From assembly GCA_943787745.1 (NCBI GenBank), contig CALSNJ010000003.1, positions 248,001 through 312,000 on the forward strand: a stretch of 64,000 nucleotides of DNA. The letters are read 5' to 3'. The translations under genes were made by a program, and so were the position numbers. The notes beneath the pieces are model-generated. The model was not told the origin of the DNA, ran no database searches, and was given only the letters and a program-made list of their open reading frames with translations. Source of the DNA: an uncultured Alphaproteobacteria bacterium (GTDB taxonomy: Bacteria > Pseudomonadota > Alphaproteobacteria > UBA6615). Shown in pieces: positions 52,131 to 54,476 of the stretch (the stretch's first letter is position 1; every line of letters starts with the position of its first letter).

Positions 52131-52784
52131 ATGAAACTCTTCGGCTATTGGCGCTCACTTGCCGCCTTCCGCGTCCGCATTGCACTCAACCTCAAAGGCC
52201 AGCCGTTTGAGGTTGTCTCGACCGATCTGATCAAGGGTGAGCAGTTCGATCCCGAATATCTCAAGGTCAACCCGCAGGGTGTGGTGCCCGCGCTGATCAC
52301 CGATAGCGGTGAAGCCCTGACCCAGTCGATGGCGATCCTTGAGTATCTCGATGAGGCGTTTCCTGCGCCGGCGCTGCTGCCCGAAGACCTGATGGCCCGT
52401 GCCCGGGTGCGGGCACTTTGCATGATCATGGTGGCCGATATGCATCCGCTCGTGGTGCCGCGCATCCGCAAATATGTCACCCAGGATTGGGGCCACAGCG
52501 AAGAAGAGCTCGGCGCATGGATCGGCAACTGGACCAAGAAGGGCCTCGAAGCCGTGGAAGCCCATCTCACCGATGGCGGCCATTCCGGAAAATTCTGTGA
52601 AGGCGATCAGGTCACCATGGCCGATCTTTGCCTTGTCCCGCAGATCGGCGCGGCCATGCTGTTCAAGATCGACATCACGCCCTATCCGAACGCCAAGCGC
52701 ATCTTCGATGAGTGCATGACGATCCCGGCCTTCTTCGACGCTCGCCCACAAGCCCAGCCGGACTTTCCGGAGGATATGAAATAG
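52131..52784 (+). CDS. maiA: Maleylacetoacetate isomerase (zeta-class glutathione transferase)
   Basis: 217 residues. N-terminal thioredoxin fold with LFGYWRSLAAFRVRIALNLKG, then NPQGVVPALITDSGEALTQSMAILEYL (glutathione-binding S-M dipeptide reads QSMAI), and the helical GST C-terminal domain with ADLCLVPQIGAAM. In this class the active serine lies in the first helix region; here the loop reads WRSLAAF. It isomerises maleylacetoacetate in tyrosine breakdown; no other gene of that pathway is in the window. Start: ATG at 52131 with GGGGGAAA. Confidence 0.88.
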   Translation: MKLFGYWRSLAAFRVRIALNLKGQPFEVVSTDLIKGEQFDPEYLKVNPQGVVPALITDSGEALTQSMAILEYLDEAFPAPALLPEDLMARARVRALCMIMVADMHPLVVPRIRKYVTQDWGHSEEELGAWIGNWTKKGLEAVEAHLTDGGHSGKFCEGDQVTMADLCLVPQIGAAMLFKIDITPYPNAKRIFDECMTIPAFFDARPQAQPDFPEDMK

Positions 52785-52822
52785 GCAAAGTCATACCGGG
52801 GGCTGTTCATCGGTTTCTGAGT

Positions 52823-53856
52823 TTGGGTTGTAGAGCGATTTTGGCTCTTCTACTGCTGTATGCCGTTGCCTTGGCGCCTGCCAAGGCAGGTGGCGGGTTC
52901 GATACCGCACGTCTTTCCGATGTTGTTGCCCAGGCCCGTTCGCTTGAGCGTCTCAACACGTTGATTGTGGCCCGGAACGGAGAGGTCGCGTTTGCCGAAT
53001 CGTTTCGCGGACGAGGGCTCGACACGCCGGTTAACGTTAAGTCGGTTTCAAAGTCGCTGATCGCGGCGTTGGTCGGAATTGCCGTGGATCGTGGCCTTCT
53101 CGAAGGGCCGGACCAGAACGATCGGTGCGCTATTGGCCGGAGCGCATCCCCGCAGGCTGCTGACCCGCGTGTGCGCAGGCATCACCATCGGAAACCTGCT
53201 GTCCATGCAGGCGGGTCTCGAACGCACATCGGGGCGCAACTACGGGCGCTGGGTGCAAAGCAGTGACTGGGTGGCCCATGCGCTTTCTCGTCCTTTCGTC
53301 GATGTGCCGGGTGGGGGGATGCTCTACTCGACGGGCAGTTCGCATCTGCTTTCCGCAATTCTGACCACGGGCGAGCGGGCGCAGCACGCTCGATCTGGCG
53401 CGGGACTGGCTGGGCAAACCTCTGGGCATTCGATATCCCGCCCTGGGACCGGGACCCTCAGGGGGTCTATCTCGGCGGCAACAACATGGCGCTCTCGCCG
53501 AACGCGACTGCTGCGGTTCGGCGAACTCTACCGCCGCGGTGGTGAGCTCGATGGTCGCCGCATCCTGTCCGGAAGCCTGGGTCGAAATCGTCCTGGATGC
53601 CGCGCACCCGCTCTGTGTTTCTCTGGCGATGGCTACGGCTATGGCTGGTTCCTGCGCGAGTGCCGGTGGCGGACGCACCGCCGCTTATGCCCGTGGTTTT
53701 GGCGGGCAATACGTCATCGTGGTGCCGTCACTGGCCATGACCGTGGTGGTCACCTCGGATACGGATACGCGCCTGCGCGTCGACGGTTACGGCGACGCTT
53801 TATGGTCGATGATTGAAAATCATCTGATCCCTGCTGCGTTGCCGACCGAAGGCTAA
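52823..53856 (+). pseudogene. Beta-lactamase-family serine hydrolase, multiply frameshifted
   Basis: Pieces of one protein occur in different frames. Frame one has a signal-like start and VKSVSKSLIAALVGIAVDRGLLEG, the SxxK active site. Another has ITIGNLLSMQAGLERTSGRNYGRW and DVPGGGMLYSTGSSHLLSAIL (the YxS-like motif). Short bits in other frames read STLDLARDWLGKPLGI, GVYLGGNNMALSP, LLRFGELYRRGGELDGRRI, and the end is GFGGQYVIVVPSLAMTVVVTSDT. At least six frame changes are needed within about 750 bases, too many for isolated sequencing errors, so this is a decayed gene. The exact start is uncertain. Confidence 0.85.
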
Positions 53857-54476
53857 CTGCCAGCCTTCTCTGCCCCCACCGCATCCATGAACTGCACCAG
53901 CACCTCATAGGGCTGGGCGCCGACGACGCCCTGTCCGTCGGCGACGTATGTTGGGACACCGGTGACGCCATAGCCCTGTGACTTGGCCCAGTCGGCATCG
54001 ACCGCGTCCTTGAAGGTGCGGTTCTCCAGCACATCGCGTGCCGCCGCGCCGTCGAGGCCGACGCCTTCGGCGATGCTCACCAGCAGGTCGATATCGGCGA
54101 TGTTCTTCTGGTCCACAAAATAAGCCTGATAGAGCTTCATGTGGATGGCATCGCCACCTTCCTGGGTGTCGGCCCATTTGCCGAGTTCCTGTGCCAGACG
54201 GCTGTTATAGGTGTGGGTGCGTTGGGCGTAGGGCAGGCCCTCTTCATCCATCATCCCCTTCATGCGGGCGTACATGGCCACCGGGTCATAGTCGCGACCG
54301 GCAAACAGTTTTTCCAAGGACAGACCCTCATCGGGGGTGTCGGCGTGGAGCGGGAAATGCACGGTCTGGATTTCGACGTCGTAGGCGGCCTTGAGTTTTT
54401 CAATACGCACGGTACTGAGATAACACCAGGGTCAAACGTAGTCGGAGAAGACCTCAAGAACTTTTGGTTCGGACAT
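53853..54476 (-). CDS. FrnE/DsbA-like oxidoreductase with UPWC active site: probable selenoprotein (in-frame TGA at 54434-54432)
   Basis: From ATG at 54476 the frame reads MSEPKVLEVFSDYV, then TGA, then PWCYLSTVRIEKL and a complete DsbA/FrnE domain to the stop at 53853, 207 residues in all. FrnE relatives start with an EVFSD-V-CPWCYLG type motif, so the TGA stands exactly at the first Cys of CPWC, while the second Cys is kept. Other motifs are LFAGRDYDP, YNSRLAQELGKWAD, AYFVDQKNIAD and YGVTGVPTYV (cis-Pro). Selenocysteine would make U15-P-W-C. A GTG eight codons later would give a 185-residue protein with no active site. The alternative is a TGC/TGT to TGA mutation in a dying gene. Confidence 0.75.
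54400..54418 (-). promoter_or_regulatory. Candidate bacterial SECIS hairpin
   Basis: In the mRNA, UCAGUAC pairs with GUAUUGA (7 bp including one G-U) around the loop CGUGC. The loop covers nucleotides 21-25 after the UGA, inside the 16-37 window usual for bacterial SECIS elements, and has G as its second base, as the known consensus asks. It overlaps the coding sequence, as expected in bacteria. Paired by hand; no folding energy was calculated. Confidence 0.5.

Follow-up and report, generated by a model that had tools for sequence, protein, structure and literature searches.

DsbA-like selenoproteins with a UxxC active site and a predicted SECIS element have been in print since 2005; proteins and signals of this type were known earlier from marine bacteria. 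Such proteins have been assigned to COG2761, which is presumably the FrnE group. In E. coli, the SECIS element of fdhF is a stem–loop just after the UGA, with a G and then a U in the apical loop and a bulged U in the upper stem; eukaryotic SECIS elements sit in the 3' UTR. The Sargasso Sea selenoproteome, in the part of that paper used here, includes a DsbA-like family placed in COG2761, with a UxxC motif, nine sequences and a predicted SECIS, and the legend of its Figure 3 includes a DsbA-like SECIS (PMC1088965). DsbA 1, 2 and 3 selenoproteins have been described from the GOS data (excerpt of PMC2398784), a "DsbA-like protein form 1" with PF01323 and UxxC is listed elsewhere (excerpt of PMC13188914), and green algae possess a Sec-containing FrnE (excerpt of PMC6627142).

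The locus described here resembles all of these to different degrees. By description, and within the excerpt available, it is like the Sargasso Sea family in belonging to the DsbA family, in its UxxC motif and in a predicted bacterial SECIS directly after the UGA, with the family placed here by Pfam DSBA and FrnE chains versus COG2761 in that study (PMC1088965). With the GOS DsbA 1/2/3 and DsbA-like form 1 proteins, it has PF01323 and UxxC in common, as far as the excerpts go (PMC2398784; PMC13188914). It is like the algal protein of the excerpted study in being a FrnE-family protein with Sec, although the algal one is eukaryotic (PMC6627142). What the present analysis adds is the comparative proof of the hairpin element; a limited search of the open-access literature found no description of the hairpin's covariation.

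The window, meaning the whole stretch of 64,000 nucleotides that was analysed, carries a gene that is predicted from its translation to encode a DsbA/FrnE-family oxidoreductase with UPWC at the active site:

53853–54476, minus strand: coding sequence of the DsbA/FrnE-type selenoprotein, stop included (basis: translation, Pfam DSBA and PDB FrnE matches)
54432–54434, minus strand: in-frame TGA, the U of UPWC, aligned opposite the first Cys of CPWC
54423–54425, minus strand: TGT codon, the second active-site residue (Cys) of UPWC (basis: translation and alignment)

The start, ATG at 54476–54474, was picked by eye. Counted from this ATG, Sec is residue 15 of a read-through product of 207 residues, whose translated N-terminus is MSEPKVLEVFSDYVUPWCYLSTVRIEKL. 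Under the standard code, the gene product ends after 14 residues or is given a false GTG start at 54410. The read-through product matches Pfam DSBA at 122.8 bits, and its sole NCBIfam match (36.6 bits) is well under the cut-off of 190. FrnE chains of the PDB (5cnw/5cp1) match it at 88.9 bits, with the CPWC of 5cp1 opposite UPWC, and the putative DsbA oxidoreductase SCO1869 (3gl5) at 67.5 bits; these proteins are of the same family by sequence, but they carry Cys and not Sec. In the product, Sec would replace the first cysteine of the CxxC motif of a DSBA domain, and Cys homologues exist, as is expected of a DsbA/FrnE selenoprotein. Next door, at 52712–53856 on the plus strand, lies a gene resembling beta-lactamases and serine hydrolases, which matches Pfam PF00144 weakly and piecemeal in two frames; spread over several frames, it is frame-broken, either as a pseudogene or through assembly errors.

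The gene is present (E <= 1e-30) in 18 of 24 family genomes, each with one TGA in the matched part covering the site. Sixteen of 385 class genomes match at E <= 1e-45, again each with one TGA; five of these 16 are also counted among the family genomes. A scan of contigs kept 80 of 144 loci as encoding relatives. At the Sec position, 99 aligned loci drawn from several homologue searches (L036–L038 gave no aligned Sec position) have TGA in 45 cases, TGT in 28 and TGC in 26, two of the TGC loci being distant paralogues within the window's own genome. Most homologues come from metagenome assemblies, so some of the phyla given for them may be mistaken. On a protein tree of 100 rows, made by a quick method with the Sec segment excluded and L144 left out, Sec and Cys have interchanged at least five times, or at least three when only starred branches are counted. 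The locus left out of the tree (L144, G007:C7:90200-91600) comes from a same-genus genome; its selenoprotein gene matches in three pieces, retains the TGA and the full hairpin, and looks frame-broken. A sequencing error at the TGA, or a pseudogene whose protein truly ends there, could be suspected from other genes of the assembly that look frame-broken (the adjacent beta-lactamase-like gene and a formate dehydrogenase alpha gene). The recurrence of the same TGA in every family genome with the gene and every matched class genome, together with a reading frame that stays open and is conserved both before and after it, leaves that explanation a practically negligible probability.

Downstream of the TGA, the earlier note had described a hairpin and had called its stem of modest strength. 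Its location, arms and loop proved exact in sequence and coordinates:

54400–54418, minus strand: SECIS hairpin, 7-bp stem and 5-nt loop (nt 14–32 after the UGA)
54412–54418, minus strand: 5' arm UCAGUAC (nt 14–20 after the UGA)
54407–54411, minus strand: apical loop CGUGC (nt 21–25 after the UGA)
54400–54406, minus strand: 3' arm GUAUUGA (nt 26–32 after the UGA)

All seven stem pairs are formed (U-A, C-G, A-U, G-U, U-A, A-U and C-G), one of them a G-U pair. The second base of the loop is G, as it is in 43 of 43 aligned TGA sequences and in the ten added later. Bacterial SECIS elements, according to the excerpt consulted, have an apical loop of 3–9 nt on an upper stem of 4–16 bp, a G within the first two loop positions and 16–37 nt from the UGA to the apical loop; the same excerpt gives MFE <= -7.5 kcal/mol for a consensus model and describes a loop pattern "mostly" with pairing N1 and N2, so that such pairing is no strict requirement (PMC13188914). 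The sizes of loop and stem seen here, the G of CGUGC and the spacing of 20 nt all fall within these rules, and the proposed agreement in position and loop G is upheld. The pairing of N1 and N2 is absent in the window, where C21 and C25 are unable to pair; a G-C at these positions is possible in L045, L064 and L138. The element is like that of E. coli fdhF in being a stem–loop just after the UGA whose loop has a G followed by a U, whereas its stem sequence differs and its upper stem has no bulged U.

Judged from this one sequence, the hairpin is weak, and the case for it rests on the homologues. The note's remark on modest strength holds. By itself, the hairpin folds at -5.9 kcal/mol and falls short of the -7.5 kcal/mol that the consensus model asks for; longer stretches have an MFE of -6.9 kcal/mol (nt 1–42) and -9.7 kcal/mol (49 nt starting at the G of the UGA), so whether that figure is reached depends on the stretch folded. 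The hairpin is within the MFE structure of all four folded stretches, yet folding of the single sequence is not significantly better than that of shuffles, with z scores of -0.95 (36 nt), -0.63 (49 nt), +0.49 (59 nt) and -0.67 (81 nt) and with 41, 52, 132 and 47 of 200 shuffles, respectively, folding equally well. Over both strands of the 64-kb window, 76 of 2112 TGA trinucleotides (3.6%) are followed by a hairpin that has at least 7 bp and at most one G-U and fits the SECIS rules.

Among homologues, the stem follows the TGA. Of the 43 distinct TGA homologues, 41 have the full 7-bp stem, and the remaining two (L033 and L034) have one mismatch each and six of seven pairs. None of 48 Cys homologues has it. 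This count leaves out L040 and L041 (which duplicate L020 and L021), L083, L098 and L114 (duplicate segments), L094 (ambiguous letters) and the paralogues L018 and L019. The stem is therefore kept wherever the TGA is kept and lost in Cys homologues, the reverse of the loss of stem under a retained TGA that would have spoken against the element. Two Cys homologues (L075 1003–1050 and L119 3043–3090) retain parts of the SECIS sequence (CTCAATACCGGGCGCATCGAG; CTCGGTGCCGTGCGTA), which look like decayed remains following a Sec-to-Cys change. Ten further TGA sequences, fetched after the stem hypothesis was fixed, all form seven pairs (12 were fetched, of which L133 and L134 repeat known sequences).

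The peptide after Sec (LSTVRIE) is strongly conserved in TGA forms, and the hairpin could in principle be an accident of this conservation with no role as RNA. For instance, four of the seven stem pairs are invariant, as such an accident would have it. Synonymous resampling, in which the proteins stay unchanged and each gene's codons are drawn anew according to that gene's usage, gives a different picture: an expected 0.065 complete stems among the 43 TGA homologues (0.019 in the Cys set), and a mean of 3.41 pairs per TGA homologue against 6.95 observed. Uncommon codons are fixed as well. Codon 9 after Sec is CGT in 41 of 43 TGA homologues, and outside this position CGT makes up only 7% of the Arg codons of the genes. 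Codon 10 is ATT or GTT in 41 of 43, where the rest of the genes has ATT for 19% of Ile and GTT for 14% of Val. Codon 5 is CTC in 42 of 43, against 27% of Leu codons elsewhere. In addition, the Ser codon switches between AGT and AGC in concert with the Ile/Val codon. The accidental origin is already contradicted by these data and is extremely improbable. The hairpin, offered at first as independent support for Sec decoding, does provide that support through its homologues, with the 41 complete stems set against the 0.065 expected.

The same constraint can be seen at the level of synonymous codons. In 51 TGA rows (L144 and rows with ambiguous letters dropped), the same-codon excess averages 0.52 at codons 5–11 after Sec and 0.07 elsewhere (rank-sum p 6e-10), whereas the Cys homologues show 0.07 at codons 5–11 versus 0.08 elsewhere. 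Outside the hairpin, a single codon column reaches the hairpin mean (0.53, and 0.51 in the Cys set).

Compensatory changes in TGA homologues, proposed earlier as a check, are found at two stem pairs, at one of them repeatedly. Across 38 distinct rows, pair 18-28 (numbered from the UGA) is U-A in 28, C-G in 9 and U-G in 1, and pair 16-30 is A-U in 36, U-A in 1 and broken in 1. Two further U-A swaps of pair 16-30 occur among the ten added sequences; in the U-A cases, Cys replaces Ser and the partner codon is ATA. The covariation evidence is limited to two pairs because the four invariant pairs never vary. Even so, the covariation of the stem (0.125) exceeds that of all 500 shuffles (mean 0.058) and of every slid register (maximum 0.074), and the same columns in Cys homologues have 54.5% of cells paired versus a shuffle mean of 54.7. 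On the tree, pair 18-28 changes at least five times and pair 16-30 at least twice. Both sides of pair 18-28 change together in a mean of 2.9 of 3 well-supported independent contrasts, and three contrasts are too few for significance (sign test p 0.25). For the U-A swap of pair 16-30 there is just one contrast, and hence one origin. A stem maintained along with the TGA and showing compensatory change is what is expected of a SECIS element.

A competing fold that is more stable and has a G-less loop would count against the hairpin, and such a fold does arise in part. The RNAalifold consensus is a different helix (about columns 5–13 with 19–27), which pairs about nt 2–10 with nt 16–24 around a G-less loop, AUCUC or ACCUC. 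In its 7-bp form, this helix is at least as stable as the SECIS hairpin in 19 of 53 homologues. In the window sequence, it is the weaker of the two (-2.1 vs -5.9 kcal/mol), and it has no excess covariation (0.101 vs 0.114 in shuffles, with 89.8% of cells paired vs a shuffle mean of 91.7). The codons that make up its 5' arm are also under little or no constraint, with a same-codon excess of 0.14 at codon 1, 0.01 at codon 3 and 0.08 at codon 4; codon 2, a single Trp codon, yields no value. The constrained codon segment matches the stem of the hairpin and not the competing helix. Moreover, while a ribosome is paused at the UGA, the 5' arm of this helix would probably sit inside its mRNA channel. 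On the covariation and codon evidence, the consensus helix was rejected as the working structure; that it is the working RNA structure is very improbable, and it may simply arise where two constraints overlap.

The SECIS stem is included in the fold of the 45 nt after the UGA in 43 of 53 homologues and missing in 10. Within nt 12–45, a stretch that probably lies outside the paused ribosome, it is included in 50 of 53. Below the stem, a further helix may be real:

54392–54428, minus strand: candidate lower helix under the SECIS stem (alignment A1 columns 7–13 with 38–43)

This lower helix (nt 4–6 and 8–10 with nt 35–40) has 85.1% of cells paired and one covarying pair (C-G 15, U-A 11, U-G 5), which base composition could also explain.

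The genome has the means to decode Sec. A tRNA-Sec gene (G000:C1:303811-303902; 71.2 bits, cut-off 47; ARAGORN anticodon tca) and genes for SelB (458 bits, cut-off 242), SelA (582 bits) and SelD (domain at 292 bits, cut-off 125, in a fused oxidoreductase–SelD protein) all lie within about 16 kb of one another, the gene set of a Sec-decoding genome. In the fused gene (L039 1495–3843, minus strand), which adjoins the tRNA-Sec gene, SelD follows a pyridine nucleotide-disulfide oxidoreductase domain, which matches TIGR03169 at 459 bits. Across the 24 family genomes, 16 have both tRNA-Sec and the TGA gene, 4 have neither and 4 have one alone (Fisher p 0.018). The TGA gene occurs without a tRNA-Sec over the cut-off in G006 (84% complete) and G019 (87% complete), and tRNA-Sec occurs without the TGA gene in G008 and G017. 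A search of the genome with covariance model R1 scored this element at 73.1 bits and found no second SECIS of the same type. The next three matches (18.7, 18.3 and 16.7 bits) comprise two that fit the model ends without the stem and one with stem sequence only, with no Sec gene seen there. A pattern scan of viral contigs for the element found nothing. A formate dehydrogenase alpha gene of the genome (L145 3121–5919, minus strand; G000:C5:260500-266500) is split over three frames; this region, the one examined, has Cys in the stretch RLCHASS, which we take to be the Sec site.

Stem position, conservation, compensatory changes, codon-level constraint, coupling to the TGA and the presence of the four Sec genes were all computed here, and the hairpin is very probably a bacterial SECIS element of a DsbA/FrnE-type UPWC selenoprotein that directs SelB-dependent Sec insertion. 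In the predicted mechanism, SelD would supply selenophosphate and SelA would make Sec-tRNA(Sec). When the ribosome reaches the UGA, SelB on the downstream hairpin would deliver Sec-tRNA(Sec). Translation would then go on past the UGA, and the active-site Cys-X-X-Cys would become Sec-X-X-Cys (UPWC). Binding of SelB to the hairpin, actual incorporation of Sec and a redox function of the protein are predictions.

The SECIS element may also bear on the protein itself. The residues after the active site are S-T-V/G-R-I/V in most Sec forms and mostly G-D-N/S-R-V in Cys forms. Contigs bearing a near-fixed form of the element are labelled Alphaproteobacteria, Gammaproteobacteria (Pseudomonadales, OM182), Deltaproteobacteria, Rokubacteria and Acidobacteria, and in one clade it goes along with the replacement of Ser by Cys and with ATA, a rare codon. 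A tentative and rather unlikely proposal is that the SECIS is kept as a near-fixed sequence of 19 nt, UCAGYACCGKGCGURUUGA and close variants, which dictates the residues after the active site. If so, SelB of these lineages may recognise bases of the stem in addition to those of the loop. Gene transfer between lineages is a plainer alternative to the reading of the stem by SelB.

With the SECIS element supported in this way, a guess from one sequence becomes a well-supported selenoprotein call, and the annotation of the gene should become that of a selenoprotein. For the family, the TGA and Cys homologues, with an out-of-sample check, make a clean natural data set in which an RNA element within a coding region constrains codons and perhaps residues.
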